Assembly: GCF_041361345.1 (NCBI RefSeq) | Contig: NZ_JBGKAD010000001.1 | Location: forward strand, 2,480,001 to 2,544,000 | Reading direction: 5' to 3' | From: Halobaculum sp. MBLA0147 | GTDB lineage: Archaea > Halobacteriota > Halobacteria > Halobacteriales > Haloferacaceae | DNA: 64,000 nucleotides | In this document: positions 14,914 to 32,797 of the stretch, in pieces | How the letters are laid out: every line of letters begins with the position of its first letter | Position numbering within the stretch: the stretch's first letter is position 1 | Notes under the pieces: generated by a model | What the model was told of the DNA's origin: nothing | Seen by the model: only the letters and a program-made list of their open reading frames with translations | The model's database searches: none | Program-made: the position numbers and the translations under genes

Positions 14914-15573
14914 GTGCCACTCGAGAACCCCTCCACTTGGACGACTCTGGACAAGGCCGTGGCCGTGACCGCGCTCGTGTTGGCCTCCGGCTACGCCGTG
15001 GGGCCGGTCCGCGAGTTGGTGATCGCCGGCGTCTCCGGACTCGTCGGCCCGCTCGCGGTCTGGCTCCCGTTCTCCGGCCTCGTGGCGGTGTTGGGTGGCG
15101 TCTCCGGACTCGCCGGCACCGCGGCACGCGCCTACGCGCAAGACCGGGCGCTCGTCGAACGTGCCAGGGCCAGGACGGAGGAACTCCGCGAAGAACTCGC
15201 CGCCGCGACCAGTGACGCAGACGATACGGACGGCGGTAGAGACGGCACGAGTGCCGGCGGTGCGGACGACGTGGCCGCCCTCCAGGCGGAACTCCGCGAG
15301 CAGACGCTCACGGTGGTCTCCGAGAGTGTCAAGCCGGCCGCCTACGGCGCGGCGGTGTCGATCCCGGCGTTCCTCTGGCTCCGGTGGGCGGTCGCCGCGC
15401 CGGCCGCGGCGGTCGTGCCGGCCGCGACGACGCTACCCGTCGTCGGGACGATCGCGTGGTCGGCGACGCTCGTCGGCCCGCTCAAACTGTGGCTCGTCTG
15501 GTACCTCGGCGCGTCGCTGTCCGTCGGCGCGCTCTCGCGGCGCCTCGCTGCCCGACTCGGCCCGACGGCCTGA
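14914..15573 (+). CDS. DUF106 (EMC3/TMCO1-like) membrane insertase-family protein
   Basis: A 219-residue integral membrane protein of the archaeal DUF106 family, distant relatives of YidC/Oxa1, EMC3 and TMCO1 that insert membrane proteins. Three hydrophobic segments plus a charged coiled-coil loop: AVAVTALVLASGYAVG, FSGLVAVLGGVSGLAGTA, then the coiled coil (ALVERARARTEELREELAAA), an acidic insert, KPAAYGAAVSIPAFLWLRW and the last helix TLVGPLKLWLVWYLGASL. Start GTG at 14914; no leader beyond about 10-25 bp from the AT-rich promoter-like box, as is usual in haloarchaea. Confidence 0.85.
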   Translation: MPLENPSTWTTLDKAVAVTALVLASGYAVGPVRELVIAGVSGLVGPLAVWLPFSGLVAVLGGVSGLAGTAARAYAQDRALVERARARTEELREELAAATSDADDTDGGRDGTSAGGADDVAALQAELREQTLTVVSESVKPAAYGAAVSIPAFLWLRWAVAAPAAAVVPAATTLPVVGTIAWSATLVGPLKLWLVWYLGASLSVGALSRRLAARLGPTA

Positions 15574-15663
15574 CTCGACGGTCCACGCCGGCGGCTCTCA
15601 CCCCCACGCCAGCGACAGCCGCTCTGTCACCGGGCGGGATCGCCCTCGGCCACTGCCGCCGAC

Positions 15664-17355: not shown

Positions 17356-17485
17356 ACACACCTCTCGGCTCCGGGCGGTCGTGTACGTGTCGGTCTCGGG
17401 CGGATCGGTCGGTGGTGTACGTATCGGGTTCGGAGGAGTGCGATGCGCGTCGAAGACGAGCCGGGGGCCTGCTCCCCGAGACGCG

Positions 17486-18199
17486 TCAGTGGGCCCAGTA
17501 GCTCGGCTCGTCGGTCCCCTCGGGGACCACGTCCGTGCCGGTGTGTGCGCCGGTGAGAATCGCGTCTTCGACGGCCTGTGGGTCCGTCCCGTCGAGGACG
17601 ATCGTCCGCATCCCGGCCCGTTCGATCAGCTTCGCGGCGGGGAGGTCGACCGGTGCGGAGGCGCCGGCGTCGCGACTCATCGGCGCGATCCGTTCGACCA
17701 ACTCCGTCGGAGTCAGCGTGTCGAACTTCCGTGCGTCGTCGTGTTCCGCCGGGTCGGCGTCGTACACCCCGTCGGCCCCCGTCCCGTACACGAGCAGGTC
17801 CGCGCCGACGGACTCCGCGAGGACGGCGGCGACGGCGTCGGTGGTCAACCCCGGCGTCACGCCGCCCATCACGGCCGTGTCGCCGCGCCGGATCGCCGTC
17901 TCGGCGTCGTCGTAGCCGGTCGCCAGCGTCGGGTCGAGCCCCTCGCCGAACCCGGCCGCGAGGAGCCGCGCGTTGAGTCGTGTGACACCGATCCCGAGCC
18001 GGTCGAGCGCCACCTCGTTGGCCCCGAGCCCGCGTGCGGCACCGATGTACTCCCGAGCGACGCCGCCCCCACCGACGACGACACCCACGTCACACCCCTC
18101 GCGAGCCACGCGCTCGATGGCGTCGGCGTGTCCAGCCACCCGATCGGCGTCGAGGTCGGGCGCGAGCACACTCCCACCCAGCGACAGTACCACTCTCAT
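17486..18199 (-). CDS. pyrH: UMP kinase
   Basis: Phosphorylates UMP to UDP in pyrimidine nucleotide synthesis. The 237-residue protein has the amino-acid-kinase fold: VVLSLGGSVL at the N-terminus (phosphate-binding GGS), VGVVVGGGGVAREYIGAARG, TAVMGGVTPGLTTDAVAAVL and the nucleotide site LLVYGTGADGVYDADP. Length and motifs match archaeal PyrH. It is the first gene of a likely pyrH-lysS operon. The 234 bp region to its right (18200-18433) is shared with the divergent methyltransferase gene and contains the AT-rich gtacttttgtac at 18371-18382. Confidence 0.93.
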   Translation of the reverse strand: MRVVLSLGGSVLAPDLDADRVAGHADAIERVAREGCDVGVVVGGGGVAREYIGAARGLGANEVALDRLGIGVTRLNARLLAAGFGEGLDPTLATGYDDAETAIRRGDTAVMGGVTPGLTTDAVAAVLAESVGADLLVYGTGADGVYDADPAEHDDARKFDTLTPTELVERIAPMSRDAGASAPVDLPAAKLIERAGMRTIVLDGTDPQAVEDAILTGAHTGTDVVPEGTDEPSYWAH

Positions 18200-18433
18200 C
18201 GTTCACCGATACCTCCCCGTCTCCTGTTAAGACTCCCGAAGCGCCCCGGCGCTCGACCCCGTCGACCGCCGACGGTCCCACCCCTGCCGACGCGTCGGCG
18301 GCGAGAGAATCGGGCCCCGATCACGACACCACGCTCTCCGAGGACGACCCGTGGTCGATACACGCCTGCGAAGTACTTTTGTACCCGCTGACGTACAACT
18401 CTGTACAACGATGGTCACGGAGGTGGCGCGGTC

Positions 18434-19156
18434 GTGGGGACCACGGTGACGGGGAGCGACGCGAGCGACCGGTACGAGATCGACGACGTGGCGTTCCTCG
18501 GCCGGACGTTCGCGGAGTACCGGCGGATGCTCGGGTTGGAGGCCGTCGAACTGTCCGGCCGACGTGTCCTCGACTGTCCGGGCGGCGCCTGCGGGTTCAC
18601 CGCGGGGGCTCGGGCACGCGGTGCGGACGCGTACGCAGTCGACCCGGTGTACGGCCCACCGGTCGAGCACGTGGCGGACAGAGCACGCCGGGACCTGCAC
18701 CGGGCGGTCGACGCACTCGACGAGGTCGAACACCTGTACGTGTGGGACGTGTACGACGACCCGGCGGACCTCGCCTCCCACCGGTGGAGTGCGCTCGGGC
18801 GGTTCCTGGCGGACTACGCCGACCACGGTGACCGCTATCTCCCGGCAGCGCTCCCGCGGCTCCCGTTCCCAGACGACACGTTCGACTTGGTGTGTTCGGC
18901 GCACCTCCTGTTCCTGTACGCCGATCACTTCGACCACGAGTTCCACGTCCGTGCGCTCCGGGAACTGTGTCGTGTCGCCCGTGGAGAGGTGCGACTGTTC
19001 CCGTTGGTCGACCTCGCGACGGAACGGTACGACGGACTCGACGATCTACTCTTGTGGCTCGAACGTGCCGGGCACGACCCGACGGTCCGGCCGGTCGACT
19101 TCGAGTTCCAGCGCGGCGCCGACGAGTGTCTCGTGATCGACGCCGCGACTGGGTGA
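18434..19156 (+). CDS. Class I SAM-dependent methyltransferase-like protein
   Basis: A 240-residue protein with a Rossmann methyltransferase layout: motif I VLDCPGGACGFTAGARARGA (residues 38-57; the usual GxGxG is replaced by PGGACG), acidic VDP after strand 2, and RLPFPDDTFDLVCSAHLLF (motif IV-like), followed by LRELCRVARGEVRLFPL. This fits small-molecule methyltransferases; the substrate is unknown. GTG at 18434 is chosen because ggaggtg ends about 8 bp before it. The upstream promoter region carries two copies of tgtacaac-like sequence near 18391-18408. Confidence 0.78.
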   Translation: MGTTVTGSDASDRYEIDDVAFLGRTFAEYRRMLGLEAVELSGRRVLDCPGGACGFTAGARARGADAYAVDPVYGPPVEHVADRARRDLHRAVDALDEVEHLYVWDVYDDPADLASHRWSALGRFLADYADHGDRYLPAALPRLPFPDDTFDLVCSAHLLFLYADHFDHEFHVRALRELCRVARGEVRLFPLVDLATERYDGLDDLLLWLERAGHDPTVRPVDFEFQRGADECLVIDAATG

Positions 19157-19216
19157 CGCTCCGGCTCGCCGGCGGCGTGCGCAAACGGTATCTCCGTCCC
19201 GACCGGACCGAGACGT

Positions 19217-20116
19217 ATGCAGACGCTCGGACTCGTCGGTGCAGTGCCGCCGGGGGTGGTGTCGACCGCCGTCGACCGACTGGACGGCGACGTGGCACTC
19301 GTGACGGCCGAGTCGGCGGGGAGAGACGACGAGACGACCGAGTCGGTGGCGCCCGGGTCCGAGGCGGGTCCCGCGGACACGACCGTCACGCTCGAACCGG
19401 ACGGGACGAGTCGGACGGTGGTCGCGGACGACGACGTGGCGGCCGTCCTCGACCGGCTGGCACCGGCCCACGACTACGCGCTCGTGGTCGGCGCCTCGCG
19501 GCTCCGTCTCCCGACCGTCGTCGTGGGCGGCGAGCCCGACCCACTCGTTCCGAGCGCGGAGGCGGACTTCTTGACGGCTCACGCACCGACGGGTGCCGAT
19601 GCGGCGGACCGTGCCGTCCCGGGGGACGTCGTCGCTCGCTACGAGGACTCGTCGACACTGACGCCGGAGCGGGTGGTAGACCACGTTGAGGACGCCGAGG
19701 CGTACGTCACACTGGGGACGTTGGTCCAGCGTGTGACGGATACGCCGGACGCCGACCGGGGCGGTGCCGTCGCGACGTTCACCGGGCGCGTCCGGGCTCG
19801 CGACGACCCCGACGACGACCGGACGACACACCTCACCTTCGAGAGGTACGAGGGGGTCGCCGCCGAGCGACTGGCGACCATCGAGTCGGAGTTGACCGAC
19901 CGCGAGGGCGTCTTGGCCGTCGAGACGCACCACCGGACCGGCGTGATCCCGGCGGAGACGGACATCGTCTTCGTCGTCGTGCTCGCCGGCCACCGGGAAG
20001 AGGCGTTCGCGGCCGTCTCCGACGGCATCGATCGGCTGAAAGACGAGGTGCCGATCTTCAAACGCGAGTCGACCGTCGACGAGGAGTTCTGGGTCCACGA
20101 ACGCGACGGCGAGTGA
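19217..20116 (+). CDS. moaE: Molybdopterin synthase catalytic subunit with N-terminal extension
   Basis: Adds sulfur from MoaD-type carriers to precursor Z to form molybdopterin. Residues 150-295 are MoaE: GGAVATFTGRVRARDDPDDD, LTFERYEGVAAERLATIESE, VETHHRTGVIPAETDIVFVV and the catalytic-Lys region RLKDEVPIFKRES. The first ~145 residues (GLVGAVPPGVVSTAVDRLDG..., DYALVVGASRLRLPTVVVGG) resemble a degenerate MobB-like domain without an intact P-loop, a layout seen in haloarchaeal MoaE. The matching sulfur carrier could be samp1 at 55514. Separated by 60 bp from the methyltransferase gene. Confidence 0.88.
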   Translation: MQTLGLVGAVPPGVVSTAVDRLDGDVALVTAESAGRDDETTESVAPGSEAGPADTTVTLEPDGTSRTVVADDDVAAVLDRLAPAHDYALVVGASRLRLPTVVVGGEPDPLVPSAEADFLTAHAPTGADAADRAVPGDVVARYEDSSTLTPERVVDHVEDAEAYVTLGTLVQRVTDTPDADRGGAVATFTGRVRARDDPDDDRTTHLTFERYEGVAAERLATIESELTDREGVLAVETHHRTGVIPAETDIVFVVVLAGHREEAFAAVSDGIDRLKDEVPIFKRESTVDEEFWVHERDGE

Positions 20117-20205
20117 CCGGCCGCCGTCGCTCGTCGTCGACTCACCCGACGAAGTCGGGGATCCGCCGACCGAGCCTACCGTCGCTCCCCAGCGACGCCG
20201 TGGCC

Positions 20206-20292
20206 GACCGGCCGAACGAGGGCACCGTCGACCGGCCGAACGAGGGCACCGTCGACCGGCCGAACGAGGGCACCGTCGACCGGCCGAACGAG
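20206..20292. repeat. 24 bp direct repeat, 3.6 copies
   Basis: Three perfect tandem copies (20206-20229, 20230-20253, 20254-20277) and a 15 bp partial copy of a 24 bp unit beginning gaccggccgaacgagggcac. It lies just downstream of moaE. The unit length is a multiple of three, but no credible gene contains it. The remaining intergenic DNA up to 20570 (about 280 bp) is noticeably AT-richer than its surroundings, with ttttcttgataac and gcattgtaaaatgtc; I see no gene in it. Confidence 0.85.
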
Positions 20293-20531
20293 GCCGTTCG
20301 CGCGGTCGGGCCGTGTCGCGCAACCTGTTCTCTCCCACGGACGAGAAATTTTCTTGATAACACTGGCGTACGAGCACGTCAGACGGACGGCATCTGCAAC
20401 CTCCGAAGACGAGTTCAGAACGCATTGTAAAATGTCTAGTCCGATTTGAGGCGCTCGTAAAGAGTTCGTTTTCCACCGTTTTACCGTGGGATTCGGCTGA
20501 ACGGAACCGAATTCCGCCGAACGGTCTCGGC

Positions 20532-20539
20532 TTTATATG
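20532..20539 (+). promoter_or_regulatory. TATA-box of the DUF7123-like gene
   Basis: The sequence tttatatg lies 32-39 bp before the ATG at 20571, in a good position for an archaeal TATA box with transcription starting about 25 bp downstream, giving a leader of only about ten bases. Confidence 0.65.
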
Positions 20540-20570
20540 ACCCTCGGGTCGGTACGGGTGAGTGAGGCCC

Positions 20571-20831
20571 ATGAGCACGACAGCAGACCCCTCCGCTGCA
20601 GACACGGACAGCCCCTCCAAGGAAGCCCGCCTGGAGCAGTACCTCCTCGAGCGCGCCCAGGACGGCGAGATGTACTTCAAGAGCAAGTTCATCGCGGACG
20701 AGGTCGGGCTCTCGCCGAAGGAGATCGGCGCCCTGATGGTCAAGCTCAAAGACTCCGCCTCGCGGCTGACCATCGAGAAGTGGTCGTACACGAGCGCGAC
20801 CACGTGGCGGATCGAGCCGACCGAGGCCTGA
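20571..20831 (+). CDS. Small winged-helix protein, DUF7123-like
   Basis: An 86-residue protein. After 20 disordered residues it forms a compact helix-turn-helix: ARLEQYLLERAQDGEMYFKS, FIADEVGLSPKEIGALMVKL, then SRLTIEKWSYTSATTWRIEP as the wing. Conserved among haloarchaea, where it is annotated as a domain of unknown function (DUF7123 as far as I recall). It is probably a DNA-binding or regulatory protein. ATG 20571 was chosen over one three codons upstream because of the short-leader promoter. Single gene. Confidence 0.8.
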   Translation: MSTTADPSAADTDSPSKEARLEQYLLERAQDGEMYFKSKFIADEVGLSPKEIGALMVKLKDSASRLTIEKWSYTSATTWRIEPTEA

Positions 20832-21060
20832 CGACCCGATCGACGACCACGGACACACGGTAGCTCCCCGACCCGACCGCACGCGCGGTCGAACACGGTC
20901 CTCGCGGTTGGTCCCCGCGAGTCACGTTCTCTTCGACGCGACACGGCAGTGGCGACGCTCGTCGAGTCCCGCCGTGGAGCGCGCTGCGAGTGCCACGGTG
21001 AAACTCGCTTCGAGTACCGCTGCGGAAGGACTTTTCCCCGCGCACGGCTAATCCGAGTCG

Positions 21061-22197
21061 ATGAGTGCCGCGGACACGGACTCGGTCCCCACCCCACCGG
21101 AACTCGAGGAAGTCTTCCACCTGACACAGGTCCGCGACGACGGCGACCGGATCGTCTACTACGGCGTCTCCGAACTCCCAGAGCGGGAACTCGTCGAGCG
21201 ACTCTGGGAGCCGTTCCGCGAGGCAGGGTACGACGTACAGGCGGCCGACACCGGCACCGGCCGGGACGTGATCGTCGCCCGCCGGTACTCTACCGGTGTC
21301 GAGGGGGTGCCGTGGGTCAACGTCGCGCTGTTGGTCGCGACGGTGCTCTCGACGCTGTTCGTCGGCGCGGTCGGTTGGTACTACGTCCCCTTCGAGACGG
21401 TCACTGCGAACCCGCTGGCGGCACTGGAGGCGTGGCCGTTCACCGCGGCGGTGTTGGGTGTCCTGTTGACCCACGAACTGGGTCACTACGCCATGGGACG
21501 GTACCACGGCGTCGACGTGTCTCTCCCGTACGTGATCCCGTTCTTCCTCCCGTTCGGCACGATGGGGGCGATCATCCGGATGCGGAGCCGGATGCCCGAC
21601 CGGCGGGCGCTGTTCGACATCGGTGTCGCCGGTCCGCTGGCGGGGCTCGTCGCCACGGTCGTCGTCACCGCGATCGGCCTGTTCCTCGGGCCGATGGAGG
21701 TGCCGGCCGGTACCGTCACCGAGGGGACGCGAGTGATCGTGTTCAACAACCCACCACTGCTGGAGCTGCTCGCCACCCTCACCGGCCAGCCCGCTGCCTA
21801 CACCGACCCCGGCCAGGTCGCGCACCCGGTGATCATGGGTGGGTGGATCGGGATGTTCTTCACACTCCTGAACCTGCTGCCGGTCGGGCAACTCGACGGT
21901 GGACACATCCTGCGGGCCATCGTCGGCGAGCGCCAGGAGACGGTCGCCGCGGTCGTCCCGCTCGTGTTGTTCGGACTCGCCGGCTACCTCCACTTCGTCC
22001 GCGGACTGGGCCTCAACGAGTCCGTCGGCCTGTGGGGGTTCTGGGGGCTGTTCGCCGCGTTCATCGCCTACCGCGGCCCGGCCCACCCGATCGACGACTC
22101 GCGACTCGACGACCGCCGCGTCGCGCTCGGCGTCGTCACCTTCGCGTTGGGGCTGCTCTGTTTCATGCTCGTCCCCATCGAGGTCGCGACGTTGTGA
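21061..22197 (+). CDS. Site-2 protease family membrane protein (M50)
   Basis: A 378-residue intramembrane metallopeptidase lacking a PDZ domain. A soluble N-terminal domain (residues 1-85; VFHLTQVRDDGDRIVYYGVS) is followed by membrane helices, the zinc motif HELGH at 138-142 (LGVLLTHELGHYAMGRYHGV), the conserved PFFLPFGTMGAIIRMRSRMP loop, and the distal motif NLLPVGQLDGGHILRAI near 271-287. This is the compact archaeal S2P type, and it is the second M50 gene in the window besides the one at 7578. It converges with thiL with a gap of 12 bp. Confidence 0.9.
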   Translation: MSAADTDSVPTPPELEEVFHLTQVRDDGDRIVYYGVSELPERELVERLWEPFREAGYDVQAADTGTGRDVIVARRYSTGVEGVPWVNVALLVATVLSTLFVGAVGWYYVPFETVTANPLAALEAWPFTAAVLGVLLTHELGHYAMGRYHGVDVSLPYVIPFFLPFGTMGAIIRMRSRMPDRRALFDIGVAGPLAGLVATVVVTAIGLFLGPMEVPAGTVTEGTRVIVFNNPPLLELLATLTGQPAAYTDPGQVAHPVIMGGWIGMFFTLLNLLPVGQLDGGHILRAIVGERQETVAAVVPLVLFGLAGYLHFVRGLGLNESVGLWGFWGLFAAFIAYRGPAHPIDDSRLDDRRVALGVVTFALGLLCFMLVPIEVATL

Positions 22198-22209
22198 GGC
22201 GACACCCGG

Positions 22210-23148
22210 TCAGTTCCCGTGTGTCCACCCGTCGTCCGCGACGGACGCGCCGTCGAGTGTGACCCCCGACGCGGTCACCTCGCCGATCCGCGACAGCGCG
22301 ACGGGACAGTCGGCCCGTGCGTCGGCCAGCGACTCGGGCGGCACCGTACACAGCAACTCGAAGTCCTCGCCGACGGTCGTCGCCATCCCCAGTCGGTCCT
22401 CGTCGTCGCTCGCGGTCTCGTCGACGGCCGGGTGGATCGGCAGCGACTCGCTCGTGATCGCGAACCCGCAGTCGCTCGCGTCGGCCAGTTGGTGGAGCGA
22501 GCGCGCGAGACCGTCGCTCACGTCCATCGCGGCCGTCGCGTACGGGCGGAGGGCGCGTCCGGCCGCGACACGCGGCTCGAACCGGAAGAGCTCGTTCCCG
22601 CGGTCCGTCGCGCCGTCCGCGAACAGTCGCAACGCGGCCGCCGTTCGCCCGAGTCGACCGGTGACACAGACGGCGTCGCCGACGGCTGCCCCGTCGCGCC
22701 GCAGTGGTGCCGGCGTGTGGTCCCGTGACTGGCTCTCCTCCGTCCCAGCCGCCGTCTCCGTCTGGTCCGGTTCCCGGAGGTGACCCAGTGCCGTCGTCGC
22801 GGTGGTGAACTCCTCGGTCTCGTCGAGGTCGCCACCGACGTACTCGGCGTCGACGGCGGCACACACGTCGCGAGCGCCACGGACGAACGCCCGGAGTTCT
22901 GCGGCGTCGAACGTCGGCGCGCCGTACACTGCCACGGCGGCCGTCGCGGCGGCTCCAGTCGCGGCCACGTCCGACAGCGACGCCCCGACGGCACGCCACC
23001 CGGCGGTGTAGCGGGTCACCCCGTCCGGGAAGTCCGTCGTCTCGTGGAGCATGTCCGTCGTGAGCACGGCGTCGCCGACGACCGCTGCGTCGTCGCCGGC
23101 CGTCGGGAGTTCGCTGGCGAGCAGCCCCAGCGCGTCGCGTTCGTCCAT
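22210..23148 (-). CDS. thiL: Thiamine-monophosphate kinase
   Basis: Phosphorylates thiamine monophosphate to thiamine pyrophosphate. The 312-residue protein belongs to the AIR synthase-like fold: GDDAAVVGDAVLTTDMLHET, TAGWRAVGASLSDVAATGAA, DAVCVTGRLGRTAAALRLFA, AMDVSDGLARSLHQLADASD and TTVGEDFELLCTVPPES are all diagnostic of ThiL. An acidic and polar insert lies at about residues 130-150. ATG 23148 directly precedes the conserved DERDALGLLA. Monocistronic; convergent with the M50 gene. Confidence 0.92.
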   Translation of the reverse strand: MDERDALGLLASELPTAGDDAAVVGDAVLTTDMLHETTDFPDGVTRYTAGWRAVGASLSDVAATGAAATAAVAVYGAPTFDAAELRAFVRGARDVCAAVDAEYVGGDLDETEEFTTATTALGHLREPDQTETAAGTEESQSRDHTPAPLRRDGAAVGDAVCVTGRLGRTAAALRLFADGATDRGNELFRFEPRVAAGRALRPYATAAMDVSDGLARSLHQLADASDCGFAITSESLPIHPAVDETASDDEDRLGMATTVGEDFELLCTVPPESLADARADCPVALSRIGEVTASGVTLDGASVADDGWTHGN

Positions 23149-23330
23149 ACGGCCGGCTTCGGCGTGGCGCGGGGAAACGGGTTCGGATTCCTGCCACTCC
23201 CGACACCCGGTGTCGACGACTCACTCGAGAACGCGACGACGTCGGGCTCCCTCTTCGAGACGACCGGTGTCGGTCCGTCCCGACGACGGGTGTCCGTCTC
23301 GACTCGTCTACTCCGGCTCCTCTCGAGCAG

Positions 23331-23352
23331 TATTGCAATATATACACAATAC
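23331..23352 (+). promoter_or_regulatory. Palindrome and TATA region before the amidotransferase gene
   Basis: A perfect 10 bp palindrome tattgcaata at 23331-23340 runs directly into tatacacaatactta, an AT-rich segment 30-50 bp before the GTG at 23382 that fits an archaeal TATA box. A palindrome overlapping the core promoter is a typical operator position. The rest of the 233 bp gap to thiL shows nothing else. Confidence 0.55.
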
Positions 23353-23381
23353 TTATCGTCACCCACCGCGTACGGCCTCGT

Positions 23382-24098
23382 GTGAGCCTCGAGATCGCAG
23401 TCGTCGACGCGTCGGTCGGAGGGACGCCGGCACGGCGAAACCTCGAACGGGAACTGTCGGCGTCGACGACGGTGTTCGCGGCGAGTACGGGTGAGATCCC
23501 TCCGACCCCGACGAGTCCGGAGTGGACGTTCGACGCCGTCGTCGTGAGTGGGTCACAGACGGCCGTCTACGACTGGATTCACGAACTCACCGAGTGGGGA
23601 CGCCGCGTCTACGAGGCGGGTGTCCCCGCACTCGGCATCTGTTGGGGGCACCAGTTCTTCGCACAGGCACTCGGTGGGCGCGTCGTGGACATGCACGAGT
23701 ACGAACTGGGGTACGAGCAGATCGAACGTGTCGGGGCGGACCCGCTGTTCGACGGCGTCGACGAGACCTTCACCAGCTTCGAGACACACTCCGACCGTGT
23801 CGCCGCACTCCCGCCGGGGGCGACGGTGTTGGCACGGAACGACGTCGGGGTACAGGCGTACCGGGTGGGTGACACCTACGGCGTCCAGTTCCACCCCGAG
23901 TACGACCGCGAGACCGCGACGTGGGTCGTCGACGGGAAGGACCTGCCCACGGAACGACTCGAGGCCGTTCGAGCGGGGATCACGGACGACGCGGTCGCCG
24001 CCGCGGCAGCGACGAAGACGGTCTTCGACAACTTCCTCGAGATCGCGGCGACGAGCCAGCCGACGGTCGTCGCCCGCGGCGCTCGGGGGAGTCGCTGA
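23382..24098 (+). CDS. Class I glutamine amidotransferase
   Basis: A 238-residue protein with the triad GATase fold: nucleophile C87 in ALGICWGHQFFAQALGG, and His/Glu in YGVQFHPEYD near residue 170. Such stand-alone domains resemble the GuaA amidotransferase domain and gamma-glutamyl-transfer hydrolases; the substrate is not evident. GTG 23382 gives a short leader from the promoter. Residues 215-238 are a helical tail. The next gene (DUF2892) is convergent. Confidence 0.85.
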   Translation: MSLEIAVVDASVGGTPARRNLERELSASTTVFAASTGEIPPTPTSPEWTFDAVVVSGSQTAVYDWIHELTEWGRRVYEAGVPALGICWGHQFFAQALGGRVVDMHEYELGYEQIERVGADPLFDGVDETFTSFETHSDRVAALPPGATVLARNDVGVQAYRVGDTYGVQFHPEYDRETATWVVDGKDLPTERLEAVRAGITDDAVAAAAATKTVFDNFLEIAATSQPTVVARGARGSR

Positions 24099-24140
24099 GC
24101 CGGTCTCGCCTCGGGAGGGTAGCCACGGGTCGACCTCGTC

Positions 24141-24362
24141 TCAGAACCGCTGCCGGAGCGTGTCGACGCCGAGGAGCCCGTACAACGGACACGTGTTCAC
24201 CGCACCCGTCACCAGCAACACCAGTGCGACGACACCGAGGGCGGGCGACGCGAGTGTCGGTAACGGGACGCTCCCGGCGAGCACCGCGAGTGACACGACT
24301 CCGAGGACGGCACCGAGCAACACGCGGACGGTCCCGTCCGCCTCTCCGACGTTCTGTTGCAT
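24141..24362 (-). CDS. Small DUF2892-type membrane protein
   Basis: A 73-residue protein: short charged start (MQQNVGEADGTVRVLLGAVL), two hydrophobic helices separated by SVPLPTLASP, then LLVTGAVNTCPLYGLLGVDT, the conserved C-P-L-Y-x-L-L-G motif of DUF2892, often linked to rhodanese or thiol chemistry. ATG at 24362; a much longer frame in the same phase is open by chance through the gene on the other strand and should not be used. Divergent from the Bat-like regulator, with ctgtacaatact just upstream as a candidate promoter. Confidence 0.82.
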   Translation of the reverse strand: MQQNVGEADGTVRVLLGAVLGVVSLAVLAGSVPLPTLASPALGVVALVLLVTGAVNTCPLYGLLGVDTLRQRF

Positions 24363-24491
24363 ACTGTACAATACTCTCAGTAGAACAACAATCTCCGTGA
24401 TCCGGCAAGCCTCGTGGGGTACCGCTCGCCGCGTCGACGCACAGACTCGACGGGTCCGTACGTTGAAGTACGCAACACGGATAGCCTCGGT

Positions 24492-27400
24492 GTGACCGAG
24501 ACCGTCGATCTCCTCGCGAGTGCGGACGTACTCGTCGTCGGTGTCCCCGACTGGACGGACACACTCCGAACTGCGATCGATGCACTCGAGCCACCCGAGC
24601 GGGGTCCCGGTGGGACCGTCCAGTCCGTCGCGAGTGTCGACGCGGCCGTCGAGACGCTCGCCGTGGAGTCGATCGACTGTGTCGTCACTGCAGCCGAGGT
24701 GGACGGCGTGACGTGTCCCGAACTCGTCGAGACGCTCACGACGGCCGTCGAGACCGCTCCGGTCGTGCTCGCCACGGCCGACGGGAGCGAGCGACTCGCG
24801 AGTGCGGCCACTGCAGCGGGTGCGAGCGACTACGTCAGGTTGTGTCGTGACGAACACACCGAGGACGGTGCCTCGACGGAGCCGCCTCTGGACGACCTCT
24901 TGGATCGTGTCGAACGTCGGTTGCGATCGGCGCGACGCGACGTGACGCGTCGCCGACGTGCGCGACAGTTCGACGCGATCTTCCACGATACGCGGACGGC
25001 GACGTGGGTGTTGCGCCCCGACGGGACGGTCCGACGCGTCAACGAGACGGCACTGGCGGCGGTCGACGGCTCCGTGTCGGACGTGGTCGGGACGAAACTG
25101 TGGGCACGCGAGTGGTGGAGTGACGGTGGACAGACACGGGGCGACGGTGGGCAGACGCGGGATGGTGGTGGGCAGACGCGGAGCGACGGGCGGACGAGTA
25201 CGGACGTGCGTGACGCGGTCGAGCGTGCGGGCGACGACGAGTACGTCGAGCTGGTCGTCGGGTTCCAGCCGTGGGACGGGAGCGAACGCCTCTTGGAGCT
25301 GTCGATCAGGCCAGTCACCGACGGGGCTGGCAGTGTCGTCGCCATCGTCGTCGAGGGTGTCGACGTGACCGACCGCGTCGAACTCGAACGCGACCTCCGC
25401 GCGTCGGAGCGACTCCACCGACTCACGCTCAACAACATGACGGACACGGTGTTGATGACCGACGAGGACGGGTCGTACACGTACGTTTGTCCGAACGCAC
25501 ACTTCATCTTCGGGTACACGGCGGCGGAGATCGAGGCGATGGGCTCGGTCGAGGACCTCCTCGGCGAAGATCTGTTCGACCCCGACGAACTCGCCGAGAA
25601 GGAGGTGTTGAAGAACATCGAGTGTACGGCGACGGACAAGGCGGGCCGCGAACACACACTCCTGGTGAACGTTCGGTCGGTGTCCGTTCGCGACGGCGAG
25701 ATCCTGTTCAGTTGTCGAGACATCACGAAACGGAAACGACGAGAGGAGGCACTCACGACGCTGCAGGCGACGGCTCGGGAACTGCTGTACGCCGAGACGA
25801 CCCACGAGATCGCAACGCAGGTCGTCGCCGACACGGAGGCGGCACTCGGCGTCGAGGCGTGTGGCGTGTTCCTGTTCGACGAGACGGCGAACCGTCTCCA
25901 GTTGGTCGCGAGCGACGACCGGTTCGAGACACTCCACGGTCCGCCGCCGAACGTCCGTGTCGGCGACGACGGACTCGTCGGTCACAGTTTCGTGACGGGC
26001 GAGACACGGTTCTTCGACGACGTTCACGACGCCGACCGACTCCAGAATCGAGCGACGGACCTCCGGAGTGCGGCGTTCGTCCCACTCGGGGACCACGGCG
26101 TGGCGGTCGTCGGCTCCGCTCGCATCGGCGAGTTCGACGGGGTCACACGCGAACTCGTTGACCTGTTCGCGGCGACGGCGGAGGCGGCACTCGACCGTGT
26201 CACCAGGGAGTCACGACTTCGCGAACAGGAGCGTGAACTCTCTCAACAGAACGCACGACTCTCAGAATTGAACCGCGTCAACGAGACGATCAGAGAGATC
26301 GACCAAGCGTTGGTCCGTGCCGAAACTCGTCGCGAGATCGAACAGACGGTGTGTGACCGACTGACGGACGGAGACCGGTTCGCGTTCGCGTGGATCGGCC
26401 GTGCGGACCGGGCGGAGACGGCGGTCGAACCGCGTGCGTGGAGCGGCACCGGCGGTGACTACCTGGACAGTCTCTCGCTCGCGGTGGACTCGGAGGATGG
26501 TGATCCGAGTACTCGGGCGGTACGGACCGGCGAGACGGTCGTCGTCGACGACGTCGCGGCGGACCTCCGCGACGAGACGTGGCGGCGCGAGGCGCTCGCG
26601 CGCGACTTCCTCTCCGTGGTGAGTCTCCCACTGGTGTACAACGACGTCGTCCACGGTGTGTTGACCGTCTACGGCTCTGTACACGGTGCGTTCGACGAGA
26701 CGACGCGGACCGTCCTCGGGGAGTTGCGCGAGACGGTCGCGTCGGCGTTGGCCGGCATCGGACGGAAGAACGCGCTCGTCTCTCCGACGGTCGTCCGGAC
26801 GGAGTACGCTATCGGCGACCCGACGTTCGCGCCGACACGGCTGGCACGCGAGGTCGCACGGGAGACGGCGACGACGGGCGACCCGGAACTCACGTACCGT
26901 GGTCGTGCACGACAGACGGACGACGGGACGGAGGTGTTCCTCGCGGTGGACCACGCGCCGACGGAGGCGGTCGAGGCGGCGGCGGATCGCCTGGTGATGT
27001 TCGGGGACGTGCAGGTCGTCTCCGAAGACGGACATGGTGGCGTCATCCGTGTTCGACTCGCCGAACCGTTCTTCGCGCTCGGGCTCGCAGACCACGGTGC
27101 AGTCCTCCAGAGTGTCACTGCGACCGCCGACGGTGCGACCGTTGTCGTCGACGTGCCGGACGGCGTCACCGTGGGTGAGATCTCCGACTTCGTACGGACG
27201 CGGTTCGAGGACGTGTCGCTCCGCTCGAAACGGGAACTCGATCGCGACGTGGACTACGGCGTCGCCTCGGAGTTCCTCGACACCGTGACCGACCGGCAAC
27301 TCGAGGTTGCACAGACGGCCTACTACGCCGGGTTCTTCGAGTCCCCGCGCGGGAGTACCGGCGAGGAGGTCGCGGCTCGACTCGACATCTCCTCGACGGC

Positions 27401-27497
27401 GTTCTACCGGCACGTCAGGACGGTCCAACGGAAACTGTTCGACACGCTGTTCGACGAGGAGTCTGCTCCGTCACTCCGATCCGACGCCGTTCGGTAG
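24492..27497 (+). CDS. Bat-like sensor/HTH transcriptional regulator (PAS, GAF, HTH-10)
   Basis: A cytoplasmic multidomain regulator of about 1001 residues of the bacterio-opsin activator family. Order: degenerate receiver-like domain (1-115; VLVVGVPDWTDTLRTAIDAL without phospho-acceptor context), PAS (155-290; FDAIFHDTRTATWVLRPDGT), PAS (300-425; LTLNNMTDTVLMTDEDGSYT), GAF (430-590; VEACGVFLFDETANRLQLVA), coiled coil, GAF (610-750; RFAFAWIGRADRAETAVEPR), Bat linker domain, and C-terminal HTH-10 (945-1000; LTDRQLEVAQTAYYAGFFES, ISSTAFYRHVRTVQRKLFD). GTG 24492 is the preferred start; GTG and ATG further upstream lie in the divergent promoter region. A 21 bp repeat encodes DGGQTR units inside the first PAS. 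Confidence 0.9.
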   Translation: MTETVDLLASADVLVVGVPDWTDTLRTAIDALEPPERGPGGTVQSVASVDAAVETLAVESIDCVVTAAEVDGVTCPELVETLTTAVETAPVVLATADGSERLASAATAAGASDYVRLCRDEHTEDGASTEPPLDDLLDRVERRLRSARRDVTRRRRARQFDAIFHDTRTATWVLRPDGTVRRVNETALAAVDGSVSDVVGTKLWAREWWSDGGQTRGDGGQTRDGGGQTRSDGRTSTDVRDAVERAGDDEYVELVVGFQPWDGSERLLELSIRPVTDGAGSVVAIVVEGVDVTDRVELERDLRASERLHRLTLNNMTDTVLMTDEDGSYTYVCPNAHFIFGYTAAEIEAMGSVEDLLGEDLFDPDELAEKEVLKNIECTATDKAGREHTLLVNVRSVSVRDGEILFSCRDITKRKRREEALTTLQATARELLYAETTHEIATQVVADTEAALGVEACGVFLFDETANRLQLVASDDRFETLHGPPPNVRVGDDGLVGHSFVTGETRFFDDVHDADRLQNRATDLRSAAFVPLGDHGVAVVGSARIGEFDGVTRELVDLFAATAEAALDRVTRESRLREQERELSQQNARLSELNRVNETIREIDQALVRAETRREIEQTVCDRLTDGDRFAFAWIGRADRAETAVEPRAWSGTGGDYLDSLSLAVDSEDGDPSTRAVRTGETVVVDDVAADLRDETWRREALARDFLSVVSLPLVYNDVVHGVLTVYGSVHGAFDETTRTVLGELRETVASALAGIGRKNALVSPTVVRTEYAIGDPTFAPTRLAREVARETATTGDPELTYRGRARQTDDGTEVFLAVDHAPTEAVEAAADRLVMFGDVQVVSEDGHGGVIRVRLAEPFFALGLADHGAVLQSVTATADGATVVVDVPDGVTVGEISDFVRTRFEDVSLRSKRELDRDVDYGVASEFLDTVTDRQLEVAQTAYYAGFFESPRGSTGEEVAARLDISSTAFYRHVRTVQRKLFDTLFDEESAPSLRSDAVR
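25122..25184 (+). repeat. 21 bp in-frame tandem repeat encoding GGQTR units
   Basis: Three consecutive 21 bp units (25122-25142, 25143-25163, 25164-25184) with small differences, encoding DGGQTRG, DGGQTRD and GGGQTRS, followed by a decayed fourth unit DGRTS. They sit in a surface loop of the first PAS domain of the Bat-like regulator, so copy-number change would not disrupt the frame. Confidence 0.8.
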
Positions 27498-27625
27498 TCC
27501 TCGGGTCGACTCGACACGGTTCGGTGGCGCCTGGATCGACTCGACCCGACACGGTTCGGTGGCCCCCGGATCGACTCGACGCCGTTCGGCAGTCTCCAGT
27601 TCGATCCGACACTGTTGGATAATCA
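27470..27625. repeat. Imperfect tandem repeats after the Bat-like gene
   Basis: Four to five imperfect copies of a 35-45 bp unit containing gatcgactcgac and gacacggttcggtggc begin within the last codons of the Bat-like gene and continue to about 27625 in the 225 bp gap before the zinc-ribbon gene. The last copies are more diverged. The remaining part of the gap (27626-27722) shows no gene. Confidence 0.6.
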
Positions 27626-27722
27626 ACCCCTCTCGACACCGGGTGTTCGACTTTCAACGTCAAACTACACCCGAACCCGTCCCCGACGGCGAGTCGCGTC
27701 CCGCGGAGGGACGTGGTGACTC

Positions 27723-27866
27723 ATGAGAGACGTAGACCAGCGACCCGAGGCGGAGACGCCCTACGAGTGTTTCGGCTGTGGAACGATAGTCCGAACGACG
27801 GATCACCCGGGAGAGTGTCCCGACTGTGGTGACCCGATGCGGAACCGACGGACACCGATCGAGTGA
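27723..27866 (+). CDS. Small rubrerythrin-like zinc-ribbon protein
   Basis: A 47-residue protein with two Cys pairs, [10 protein letters not shown] (C16, C19) and [12 protein letters not shown] (C32, C35), which form a zinc ribbon like that of rubredoxin/rubrerythrin. It belongs to a widespread haloarchaeal family annotated as rubrerythrin-like domain proteins (DUF7129, as I recall). ATG 27723; stop at 27864-27866 is two bases before the ATG of glutamate dehydrogenase, so the two are co-translated. A role in metal handling or protein interaction is possible but not shown. Confidence 0.85.
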
Positions 27867-27868
27867 CG

Positions 27869-29188
27869 ATGGCGTCGACAGACACGACACACGACGACGA
27901 GACGACGACGGACGACTCGACGACCGACGGATCGACGACCGACGAGACGGACGAGTCGATGTTGGAGACGGCACGTCGACAGCTCTCGCGGGCTGCCGCA
28001 CACGTCGACATCGATCCGAACGTCGTCGAACGACTCGAACACGCCAAACAGGTCCACGAAGTGACCATCCCGATCGAACTCGACGACGGGACCGTCGAGG
28101 TGTTCACCGGGTACCGCGCACAACACGACAGTGTCCGCGGGCCCCACAAGGGTGGACTCCGGTACCACCCCGAGGTCACACGCGACGAGTGCGTGGGGCT
28201 CGGAATGTGGATGACGTGGAAGTGTGCCGTCATGGACCTGCCGTTCGGCGGCGCGAAGGGTGGCGTCGCGGTGAACCCCAAACGGCTGAGTCGCGACGAG
28301 AAGGAACGACTGACACGCCGGTTCGCACAGGAGATCCGCGACGTGATCGGTCCACACGAGGATATCCCGGCCCCGGACATGGGGACCGATCCCCAGACGA
28401 TGGCGTGGTTCATGGACGCCTACTCGATGCAGGAGGGGGAGACGGCACCGGGTGTCGTCACCGGGAAACCACCACTCGTCGGCGGTAGTGAGGGGCGCGA
28501 AGAGGCCCCCGGTCGGAGTGTCGCGATCGTCACGCGGGCGATGTGTGACCACTACGACTGGCCACTCGCCGACACCACCGTGGCGGTACAGGGGTACGGG
28601 AGCGTCGGCGGCAACGCCGCCCGCCTCCTCGACGAGTGGGGAGCGACGATCGTCGCGGTCAGCGACGTGAACGGTGCGATGTACGATCCCGACGGGATCG
28701 ACACCACGTCGGTCCCGCTCCACGACGAAGAGCCGGAGGCGGTCACCGACACCGCCGAGCAGGTGATCTCCAACGAGACACTCCTCGAACTCGACGTCGA
28801 CGTGTTGATCCCCGCCGCACTCGGGAACGTCCTGACGGCCGAGAACGCCGCGGACGTACGTGCGGACCTGGTCGTCGAGGGTGCGAACGGCCCGACGACG
28901 TCCCGAGCAGACGAGATCCTCGCCGAGCGAGGTGTGCCGGTGCTCCCCGACATCCTCGCCAACGCCGGTGGTGTGACGGTGAGTTACTTCGAGTGGCTCC
29001 AAGACATCAACCGGCGAACGTGGTCGCGAGAGCGCGTCAACGAGGAGTTGGAGACGGAGGTGTTGTCGGCGTGGCGGGCCGTTCGGGACGAACGGGAACG
29101 CCACGACGTGACGTGGCGTGACGCCGCCTACGTCGTCGCGCTCCAGCGTGTCGCCGAAGCCCACGAGATCCGCGGGCTCTGGCCGTGA
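27869..29188 (+). CDS. gdh: Glutamate dehydrogenase (Glu/Leu/Phe/Val family)
   Basis: Interconverts glutamate and 2-oxoglutarate plus ammonia with NAD(P). The 439-residue protein has a 35-residue acidic tail, then the substrate domain: [20 protein letters not shown], catalytic region [40 protein letters not shown], and a Rossmann coenzyme domain with [21 protein letters not shown]-terminal [14 protein letters not shown] ends the family. ATG 27869 chosen (a GTG lies two codons earlier). It sits between the zinc ribbon and the NAD kinase fusion with gaps of 2 and 7 bp: one operon. Coenzyme preference cannot be read off safely. Confidence 0.93.
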
Positions 29189-29195
29189 TCGACCC

Positions 29196-30977
29196 GTGCA
29201 CGCGAGACGACTGACGACGACCGACCGGATCGTCGCGGTCGTCAGCCCCGACAGTGACCGTCCGGTCCGTCGGCTCGAACGGTGGACGACGGAACACGGT
29301 GTGGCTCTGACGACCGTCCCCGTCGGAGAGTCTCCACCCGGACTCTCGCGAGACGGGGAGGCGACCCTGGGTGTCGCCGTCGGTGGCGACGGCACGTTCC
29401 TCCAGGCCGTCCGTCAGTTCGCGCCCCACGGCATTCCAATACTCGGTGTCGACACGGGGACACTCGCGTTCCTCGTCCGCGTCCCGGCAGACGGCGTCGG
29501 CGCGGCACTCACGGAGATCGTACTCGGCCGCGCGGCGGTCGAACGACGTCCTCGTCTCACTGTCGCGGCGTCCGACCTCTCGACGACCGCACTGAACGAC
29601 GTCGTCGTCCGTCCCCGGCCCCCGGACGATCCCGTCGACCGGAAGACGGTGGGGATCGACGTGTACGTCGACCGGGAGTACGTCGGCGAGTACCACGGCG
29701 GTGGCGTGGTCGTCTCCACGGCGACCGGGTCGACTGGACTCGCGTTGTCCGCCGGTGGTCCGATCCACGACCCACGCGCCAGTGAGGCCGTCCAGATCGT
29801 CCCACTGGAGACGCACTCGTTGGGTGTCCGGCCACTCGTGGTCGGTCCCGACACACCGATCACCGTCGTCCCCGACGGACCGACCACGCTGCGTGTCGAC
29901 GGTGGACAACGGTACCGCGAACTGGAACCCGGAACGCCACTCCACGTCGACGGGACGGCACCACCGGCCGAACTCGTCACGACGCGTCTCGACGACCAGT
30001 TCTACGACACACTCGAGGCACGACTCGGGTGGAGCGTCCGCGACGACGACGACCCACGGACGGACCCGACACCACCCACGACCCCCACTCGGGTGGATGC
30101 CGACGGTTCGACGCGATCGGTGACTCCCGTTCGGACGGACGCCGTCGACCCGACACGCCCGACGGAGACGGACGATCCGGCCCGTGTGTCCGGAGCCGAC
30201 CCCGACGTCCCGGTCGACCTCTCTCGGGCACTCCGCGTGGCCGTCGACGCCGTCGAGAGTGTCGCCGAACCACTCCGACGACGGCACGGGGACGTCGACA
30301 CGGAACACCACAAGACGGACAGCGCGGACATCGTCACCGACGCCGACCGCCTCGCGGAGGAGACGATCACGGCGACGCTCGACGCCGAGTTCCCCCAGTG
30401 TGCGTGTCTCTCCGAGGAGTGTGGTGCGACACGCGGTGACGGTGCCGCCACCTGGATCGTCGACCCGCTCGACGGAACCAGCAACTACGCGAACGGCAAC
30501 CCCAACTACTGCGTCTCCGTCGGACTGGTCGCCGACGGAGTGCCGGTACTCGGCGTCGTTCACGCCCCCGAGACGGGTGACCTGTGGACCGAGATCCGCG
30601 ACAGGTTCGCTCGACTGAACGGCGACCCCGTCTCGACGACGGATCGCGAGGCACTCTCCGAGAGTGTCCTGATGTCCGGCTACGACCCGGGCGGTGCGTT
30701 CCTCCGGGAGTTCTACGACGACGCTCGCGGCATCCGTCGACTCGGCTCCGCGGGGCTCCACCTCTGTCACCTCGCGAGTGGTGCGACCGACGCCGTGTGG
30801 GAGTACGACACCGCGCCGTGGGACGTCGCCGCGGGTGTCGTCGTCGCACGCGCGGCCGGCGCGACGTTGACCGGCCTCGACGGGGAGCCGTTCGAGTTCG
30901 ACGCGTGGGGGAGACGCACACCGTTGCTCGGAACCAACGGCCCACTCCACGACAGTCTCTCGACTCGGACACCTTGA
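29196..30977 (+). CDS. Fused NAD kinase - inositol monophosphatase-family protein
   Basis: A 593-residue two-domain protein. N-terminal NAD kinase (1-280): GGDGT at 63-67 in VAVGGDGTFLQAV, the NE/D motif as ALNDVVVRP (134-135), and GGGVVVSTATGSTGLALSAG. A Thr/Asp/Pro-rich linker spans about 285-345. C-terminal inositol-monophosphatase-like domain (350-593): HKTDSADIVTDADRLAEETI, metal Glu in LSEECG, DPLDGTSNYANGNPNYC and WDVAAGVVVARAAGATLTG, all magnesium-site motifs. In Methanocaldococcus a fused NADP phosphatase/NAD kinase (MJ0917) has the opposite domain order. Inference: makes and removes NADP, controlling coenzyme for the adjacent dehydrogenase. GTG 29196 is the only start compatible with the operon spacing. 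Confidence 0.9.
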   Translation: MHARRLTTTDRIVAVVSPDSDRPVRRLERWTTEHGVALTTVPVGESPPGLSRDGEATLGVAVGGDGTFLQAVRQFAPHGIPILGVDTGTLAFLVRVPADGVGAALTEIVLGRAAVERRPRLTVAASDLSTTALNDVVVRPRPPDDPVDRKTVGIDVYVDREYVGEYHGGGVVVSTATGSTGLALSAGGPIHDPRASEAVQIVPLETHSLGVRPLVVGPDTPITVVPDGPTTLRVDGGQRYRELEPGTPLHVDGTAPPAELVTTRLDDQFYDTLEARLGWSVRDDDDPRTDPTPPTTPTRVDADGSTRSVTPVRTDAVDPTRPTETDDPARVSGADPDVPVDLSRALRVAVDAVESVAEPLRRRHGDVDTEHHKTDSADIVTDADRLAEETITATLDAEFPQCACLSEECGATRGDGAATWIVDPLDGTSNYANGNPNYCVSVGLVADGVPVLGVVHAPETGDLWTEIRDRFARLNGDPVSTTDREALSESVLMSGYDPGGAFLREFYDDARGIRRLGSAGLHLCHLASGATDAVWEYDTAPWDVAAGVVVARAAGATLTGLDGEPFEFDAWGRRTPLLGTNGPLHDSLSTRTP

Positions 30978-31179
30978 CTGTCGACCCACCCTAGACGCGA
31001 GCGTCCGACCGCTCGCGGACCGTCCCGCCGCCACGGCACCACCCGAGTCCGACGTGTTCCGACGACTCGCCCGGCCGCCACGTCGACGATCCGTCTCCCC
31101 TCCACTCGGACGACTCCCCACCCACCGCGTGCGCCCCACTTCGCCGGGTTGATACCGACTCGCGTCGGAGCGGGGAGTC

Positions 31180-32205
31180 GTGAACGGCGATCAGTTGCGC
31201 GCCACCGTGCTGGGGTTCCTCGCGGCCGGTGGCGTCCTCGGGGTGTTGGTCTACTCGCTCGACGTGGGCGAGTTGACGGCCAACCTCGTGCGTGCGGAGC
31301 CGCCGGTGCTCGCACTCGTCGTCGGTGCGATCCTCCTGTGGCTCCTCGCGTGGGGGTTCGCACTCCGGACCGTACTGGGCGTCCTCGGCGTCGACATCCC
31401 ACCGCACCTCGCCTTCTTCGTGTTCAACGGCGCGATGTTCGCCAACAACGTCACGCCGTTCGGGCAGGCCGGCGGCGAGCCCGTGACCGCGCTGTTGATC
31501 TCCGCGGTGACGGACACGGAGTACGAGCGGAGCCTCGCGGCCATCGCCAGCGTCGACACGCTGAACTTCTTCCCCTCCATCGCGTTCGCGCTGCTCGGGG
31601 CCGCCTACTACGCCACACAGGCGACGTTCGGCCGGCGACTCCGGGTGGCGACGGGAATCGCGGTCGTCCTCGCGGTGGCGGTCCCCGTCGTCGGCTACCT
31701 CGGGTGGCGCAACCGCGACCGCCTGCGTGGGTTCGTCACCGGGCGACTGACGCCGCTCGTCCAGCGTGTCGCGCGACTGGTCCCGGGCGTCTCCGAACCG
31801 AGTACGGACACCGTCGAACACCGCGTGGACCACTTCCTCGGCGCGATCGAGCGCGTGGCGACGGACCCGCGGGGCCTCGTGATCGCGCTCTCGGCGTCCA
31901 CGCTCGGGTGGCTGTGTCAGATGGTCGGGCTCTGGCTCGCCTTCCGCGCGCTAGACACACCGGTCGACATCACGGTGGTGATGTTCGCGGTGCCGATGGG
32001 GGCCATCGCCGGTGCGACGCCGACTCCCGGCGGCTCCGGGTTCATCGAGAGTGTGCTCACGGGGCTGTTGGTCGTCGTCTTGACCGTCCCGCAGGCGACC
32101 GTGGGTGCGGCAGTCATCCTCTTCCGAGCAGCGGTGTTCGGCGTCCCCGTGCTCCTCGGTGGACTCGTGGTCTCGTGGATCGGCGTCGACGTGTACGGGC
32201 AGTGA
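31180..32205 (+). CDS. Lysylphosphatidylglycerol synthase TM-region family membrane protein
   Basis: A 341-residue polytopic protein of the UPF0104/LPG-synthase transmembrane (AglD C-terminal) family. Eight or so helices, with conserved APPVLALVVGAILLWLLAWG-like start, the FFVFNGAMFANNVTPFGQAG signature (G-x-G-E-P region GGEPVTALLIS) and GAIAGATPTPGGSGFIESVL. No catalytic aminoacyl-transfer domain is attached, so it is more likely a lipid-carrier flippase or scramblase than an aminoacylating enzyme. GTG 31180 has gcgggga(g) 5-9 bp upstream. The 202 bp gap 30978-31179 before it holds no gene. Confidence 0.85.
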   Translation: MNGDQLRATVLGFLAAGGVLGVLVYSLDVGELTANLVRAEPPVLALVVGAILLWLLAWGFALRTVLGVLGVDIPPHLAFFVFNGAMFANNVTPFGQAGGEPVTALLISAVTDTEYERSLAAIASVDTLNFFPSIAFALLGAAYYATQATFGRRLRVATGIAVVLAVAVPVVGYLGWRNRDRLRGFVTGRLTPLVQRVARLVPGVSEPSTDTVEHRVDHFLGAIERVATDPRGLVIALSASTLGWLCQMVGLWLAFRALDTPVDITVVMFAVPMGAIAGATPTPGGSGFIESVLTGLLVVVLTVPQATVGAAVILFRAAVFGVPVLLGGLVVSWIGVDVYGQ

Positions 32206-32341
32206 CCCTTCGCGACCGGGTCGCTTCGGGCGTGTCTCGACGTGGCGGCTCCTCAGGGCGTGTGCGAGACGAGTGTGTGGGGTCGCCACGGGCCCGAGCC
32301 GATACGACGATTTTAAACTGCGTGGTTGCGAATCGGGCCGT

Positions 32342-32797
32342 ATGGTCACCCTCTACGACGTTCCGGCGGAGGACCTCATCGAGGAGGTCGCCGACCGGCT
32401 CGAAGACCGTATCGAGGAACCGGAGTGGGCAGAGTTCGTCAAGACGGGCGTCGACCGCGAACTCCCGCCCCAGCAGGACGACTTCTGGTACCGACGCGCG
32501 GCGTCGCTGCTCCGGAAGGTCGCCGACCAGGAGCCGGTCGGTGTCGGCACGCTGGCGACCGACTACGGCGGCGCCAAGCAGGGATCGACGCGGTACCGTG
32601 TCGCTCCGCCGAGCAACGTCGACGGCTCCCGGAACGTCATCCGGACGATCCTCCAGTCGCTGGAGGAGGAGGACCTCGTCGAGACCGCACAGGGCGAGGG
32701 CCGTCGGATCACCGACGAGGGCCGATCGTTCCTCGACGAGGTCGCCGGGGACGTGCTCGACGACCTCGACCGGCCGGAACTCGAACGCTACGCGTAA
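32342..32797 (+). CDS. rps19e: Small ribosomal subunit protein eS19
   Basis: Ribosomal protein S19e, needed for 40S/30S-type small subunit maturation. The 151-residue protein starts MVTLYDVPAEDLIEEVADRL and contains KTGVDRELPPQQDDFWYRRA, SLLRKVADQEPVGVGTLATD, GGAKQGSTRYRVAPPSN and the C-terminal helix RRITDEGRSFLDEVAGDVLD, all matching the family. An AT-rich gattttaaactgc lies about 22 bp before the ATG and is the likely promoter. It heads the conserved archaeal group rps19e - PDCD5 - PP-loop protein. Confidence 0.96.
   Translation: MVTLYDVPAEDLIEEVADRLEDRIEEPEWAEFVKTGVDRELPPQQDDFWYRRAASLLRKVADQEPVGVGTLATDYGGAKQGSTRYRVAPPSNVDGSRNVIRTILQSLEEEDLVETAQGEGRRITDEGRSFLDEVAGDVLDDLDRPELERYA

Follow-up and report, generated by a model that had tools for sequence, protein, structure and literature searches.

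Proteins that join NAD kinase to a phosphatase of opposing activity have been described in methanogens. According to the accessible part of one report, MJ0917 and MMP1489 are NAD kinase/NADPase enzymes, and the phosphatase of MJ0917 shows fructose-1,6-bisphosphatase (FBPase) activity without inositol monophosphatase (IMPase) activity (PMC8553519). These enzymes are built from the same two domain families as the protein described here, on a single chain of similar length, but their domain order is opposite. In Haloferax volcanii, two NAD kinase paralogues are known (nadK1, HVO_2363, and nadK2, HVO_0837), and no fusion is mentioned in the accessible portion of that account (PMC8305020). A search of published work, mostly open-access, found no title on a haloarchaeal NAD kinase/phosphatase fusion, which is weak evidence of absence.

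The stretch of DNA analysed here (hereafter the window) comprises 64,000 nucleotides of a haloarchaeal genome (G000, contig C1:2480001-2544000). One of its open frames contains the Pfam domains NAD_kinase (aa 56-111), NAD_kinase_C (aa 134-252) and Inositol_P (aa 343-569), confirming a sequence-only reading that had recognized an NAD kinase fused N-terminally to an inositol-phosphatase-family domain (Table 1). Scores exceeded the gathering thresholds for the kinase half (PF01513 and PF20143, 45.2 and 63 bits versus 25.5 and 23.7) and for the phosphatase half (PF00459, 183.6 versus 27 bits; whole-protein E-value 7e-54). Haloarchaeal relatives share a conserved N-terminus (M-x-x-R-[RT]-L-x-T) that aligns at the GTG at 29196, and this codon was for that reason taken as the start. 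In an AlphaFold model built with 60 sequences (mean pLDDT 80.3, pTM 0.50), two mostly confident domains are separated by residues of pLDDT below 50 (aa 280-301 and 304-336), and the predicted placement of the domains relative to each other should not be trusted. The linker (aa 283-341) has 59 residues in the window copy and 17-75 in 59 relatives. Foldseek matched plain IMPases/SuhB and NAD kinases, each across one half of the protein. An Rfam search gave no match.

Table 1. Features of the fusion gene and its surroundings in the window
Feature	Coordinates	Strand	Details
NAD kinase - IMPase-family phosphatase fusion	29196..30977	+	593 aa, GTG start, one open frame
NAD kinase half	29196..30062	+	aa 1-289: GGDGT 63-67, ND 134-135, GSTGL 178-182, DG 235-236
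Linker region	30063..30218	+	low confidence in AlphaFold model
IMPase-family phosphatase half	30222..30977	+	aa 343-593: T-D-A-D 381-384, EE 407-408, DPLDGT 423-428, WD 542-543
gdhB, glutamate dehydrogenase GdhB	27869..29188	+	439 aa; ends 7 bp before fusion
Rubrerythrin-like zinc-ribbon gene	27723..27866	+	47 aa; ends 2 bp before gdhB
Block of about 8 kb	23185..31139		amidotransferase-like gene, PAS/GAF regulator-like gene, zinc ribbon, gdhB, fusion

The reversal of domain order relative to the MJ0917-type enzyme, also pointed out in that reading, was borne out by the NCBIfam model for bifunctional NADP phosphatase/NAD kinase (NF010678). This profile has the phosphatase at its N-terminal and the kinase at its C-terminal side; the kinase half of the fusion (aa 60-248) aligns to profile positions 354-541 and the phosphatase half to positions 45-259. 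The score of the fusion, 156.5 bits, lies below the cut-off of 493. For the phosphatase half, the models for histidinol-phosphatase (HisN, 140.7 bits), FBPase/IMPase (124.4 bits) and CysQ (115.5 bits) outscore NF010678. These best models, the plain IMPases found as nearest structures by Foldseek and the FBPase activity also reported for MJ0917 in the accessible part of PMC8553519 would all suit a phosphatase of other specificity, for fructose-1,6-bisphosphate, inositol phosphate, PAP or histidinol phosphate, fused to NAD kinase for co-expression or folding and using NADP as a minor substrate at most. We consider this rather unlikely: all three models score under their cut-offs, the window genome contains three more IMPase-family genes, and the repeated association with NAD kinase, found in two orders as described below, points to NAD(P) metabolism.

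We take GGDGT, N-E/D and GSTAY to be motifs of NAD kinases, and EE, DPLDGT and WD to be motifs of the IMPase metal site. The claim of intact signature residues in both domains is right for GGDGT, N-D/E, EE, DPLDGT and WD, all found in the window copy together with the DG pair of the kinase and the T-D-A-D motif of the phosphatase, but not for GSTAY, which reads GSTGL in this protein and lacks the tyrosine. The same pattern extends over the fusion clade. GGDGT, N-[DE] and DG are conserved in 34/34 rows of one alignment (A1) and in 59-60 of the 60 rows of a second, overlapping one (A2), while the tyrosine of GSTAY is present in none of the 34 or the 60; the site reads G-[SA]-T-G with I, V, L, M or R as the next residue and in no case Y. 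By comparison, GST[AG]Y was found in 45 of 49 stand-alone NAD kinase rows, the other four giving no match to the search pattern. One locus cut by a contig end (L072) was left out of A1; A2 took in 59 of a set of 70 relatives, from which three short frames (L171, L179 and L189) had already been excluded. The window copy is divergent, with 36-50% identity to the 33 other fusions, and carries unique changes, such as Q70 where every other row has E.

The clade-wide absence of the tyrosine and the further changes of the window copy raise the question of whether only the phosphatase works, with the kinase half binding NAD(P) as a degenerate or regulatory domain, the more so as the window genome has other NAD kinase genes. 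The conservation of GGDGT, N-[DE] and DG throughout the clade makes this improbable, as do the Haloquadratum-type genomes, in which the search turned up no further ordinary NAD kinase gene.

The genome complements bear on this point. Including the fusion, the window genome has four NAD-kinase-family genes, so that the fusion is probably an accessory copy in this strain; the PF01513 paralogue of this genome, L001, also matches DAGK_cat. PF20143 matches were counted in 42 genomes. Among the 21 that carry the fusion, 16 have four matches, one has five (two of them fusions), one has three and three have two (G060, G087 and G018, the last being 70% complete); among the 21 non-carriers, 20 have three matches and one (G003) has two. 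Replacement of a stand-alone NAD kinase by the fusion as a rule was rejected on these counts, as carriers mostly have four matches against three in nearly all non-carriers. Only the fusion and one PF01513 paralogue of 367-436 aa, of the COG3199 type, were found in G060 (99% complete) and G087 (one contig, 99% complete), and likewise in the Haloquadratum walsbyi assemblies J07HQW1 and J07HQW2. Stand-alone NAD kinases are apparently missing from G060, G087, G511 and G512 (loci L255-L257 and L259). In Haloquadratum and in one Halovivax-like genome (G087), no ordinary NAD kinase other than the fusion was found. G087 has the genus code of G134, a genome whose matches agree with those from the Halovivax asiaticus genome that contains L134. 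As these genomes hold no NAD-kinase-family gene besides the fusion and the PF01513 paralogue, the kinase half probably works; judged by gene content, the fusion is likely to be the sole NAD kinase of Haloquadratum-type genomes, and it seems to serve as the main one in Haloquadratum.

The fusion belongs to one haloarchaeal/Marine Group IV clade. In an unrooted tree, the kinase halves form one group (support 100/100), distinct from a group of 27 rows of stand-alone NAD kinases of haloarchaea (100/100) and from one of 11 rows of other archaeal NAD kinases (98/93). Haloarchaeal stand-alone enzymes, such as nadK1 and nadK2 of Haloferax, are of the same kinase family but lack the fused phosphatase, retain GSTAY and lie in a clade apart from the fusion kinase; the window genome, too, has stand-alone copies. 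The phosphatase halves also form a single group in a quick tree with long branches (SH-aLRT 98). The trees give the window copy no firm place within the clade: it is outermost in the quick kinase tree under midpoint rooting, and in the phosphatase tree it stands on a long branch beside L121. The trees used 28 of the 70 fusion relatives. Before the quick trees, eight kinase loci that were duplicate, partial or awkward (L002, L004, L080, L083, L223, L233, L249 and L250) and 11 duplicate or partial phosphatase loci were dropped, and 7 further kinase rows, long or redundant, before the final kinase tree.

Outside the order, an IMPase-family frame lies directly upstream of the NAD kinase gene, on the same strand and abutting or overlapping it, at nine of 12 loci examined mostly with short flanks (L236-L242, L246 and L247), and no such frame was found at the other three. 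The domains of NF010678 follow this same order, and those of the fusion the opposite one. No such upstream frame was seen at any of the stand-alone NAD kinase loci of haloarchaea that were examined: of 34 loci scanned, 32 showed the kinase, and the sole phosphatase match was the window fusion itself (L233). Since the fusion kinase represents a lineage other than that of the archaeal NAD kinases preceded by an IMPase-like gene, through which alone the kinase lineage of MJ0917 was compared, and since the two orders are opposed, NAD kinase and IMPase-family phosphatase have probably been coupled twice, independently and in opposite orders. Such a double coupling favours the pairing of NAD kinase with NADP phosphatase.

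Within the order, the fusion was detected in 34 of 195 genomes (35 loci, one of them cut by a contig end; G078 carries two). In the family, it is present in 11 of 170 genomes, and in the genus, the window genome is the sole carrier among four. In a phylum sample of 392 genomes, no row from outside the order scored above 121.3 bits among the matches listed; in the search of the order, the weaker half of an uncut fusion still reached 188 bits. Of 80 loci retained from named genomes, 73 match both halves; they come from Natrialbaceae, Halovenus, Halorussus, Haladaptatus, Halostella, Haloquadratum and Marine Group IV bins. One contig of a bin labelled Chloroflexi (L175) bears a fusion of Marine Group IV type; as its fusion groups with Marine Group IV, the bin is probably mislabelled. 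Ten plasmid records cover at least 80% of the query; seven are annotated, all as 'inositol monophosphatase family protein', and three have no annotation. The plasmid proteins of Haloterrigena turkmenica and Natronorubrum bangense are full-length members, 43-48% identical over 99% of the query, and the window copy differs from the plasmid members so annotated only by its divergence and its neighbourhood. The family is widespread but little noticed in haloarchaea, a variant of the NADP phosphatase/NAD kinase theme.

The position of the fusion behind a glutamate dehydrogenase gene, with a zinc-ribbon gene ahead of both, had been read as a locally controlled NAD/NADP balance for ammonium assimilation. 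The arrangement itself is as described: the upstream gene matches the NCBIfam model GdhB_Halo (785.9 bits, cut-off 620), and gaps of only 2 and 7 bp make one transcript of zinc ribbon, gdhB and fusion plausible in this strain. A bacterial promoter and terminator scan, ill-suited to archaea, gave nothing. Elsewhere, gdhB was found beside the fusion at none of 34 other loci of the order, 73 loci of named genomes and 9 further loci of the family, with flanks of at most about 9, 6 and 9 kb, respectively, shorter at contig ends, in three sets that overlap in genomes. A conserved gdhB-fusion operon was rejected on this ground. None of the neighbours of the fusion was found to be widely conserved, the largest shared neighbour cluster covering six loci (the ORF clustering lost the fusion itself in 6 of 35), and the other gdhB loci tested showed neither the zinc ribbon nor the amidotransferase-like gene next to gdhB.

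Comparison with a congener, G196, indicates how the neighbourhood may have arisen. Its flanks are collinear with window positions 15267-23184 and 31140-32796, and about 78 bp stand in place of the 7,955 bp of the block. The block is also absent from this site in two genomes of the same family, G138 and G060, although the alignment of G060 is patchy near the site; the contig of G197 ends there, G195 gave no match and G115 was left out. Inside the block, upstream of the zinc ribbon, lies a large frame (24414-27497) named PAS/GAF-type regulator-like from its translation, and no gene of a mobile element was noticed. A second glutamate dehydrogenase (50% identity) is present in the window genome and is the only type with a full-length match in three congeners, and orthologues of gdhB (64-76%) occur in all 5 genomes of family f7 that were searched. 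On the simplest reading, the window lineage gained a block holding both gdhB and the fusion, and their adjacency looks like a local accident of inserted DNA. In Halobacterium, the accessible part of an expression study suggests an NAD+-linked, catabolic role for GdhB (PMC2880973), which also speaks against ammonium assimilation. Despite the short gaps, a local unit with gdhB that tunes NAD/NADP for this purpose is accordingly very improbable.

Taken together, the data make it reasonably probable that the fusion is a bifunctional NAD kinase/NADP phosphatase of a haloarchaeal clade. The N-terminal half would phosphorylate the 2'-hydroxyl of NAD with phosphate from ATP or polyphosphate, and the C-terminal half, a predicted Mg2+-dependent phosphatase of the IMPase fold, would remove this phosphate from NADP; a flexible linker would tether two independently folded domains, and the NADP pool would be set from both sides by a single chain. 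This pair of activities, with NADP as the presumed substrate of the phosphatase, is supported by homology, by the conservation of motifs and by the coupling of these families on two occasions, apparently independently. Counting against it are the NF010678 score below the cut-off, the higher scores of other phosphatase models, the lost tyrosine of GSTAY and the divergence of the window copy. More tentatively, and with somewhat less than an even chance, Haloquadratum and some other haloarchaea may have as their only ordinary NAD kinase a self-opposing chain that has dropped the GSTAY tyrosine and arose independently of the methanogen enzyme, in the opposite order.

If true, NAD kinase and an opposing phosphatase have been joined twice, in both orders, and an 'intrinsic NADPase' would be a recurring solution and not peculiar to methanogens. 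There would also be testable grounds for re-annotating the family, the listed plasmid members of which bear the name of the phosphatase only. Organisms of the Haloquadratum type would be those in which a second NAD kinase may not bypass the opposing activities.
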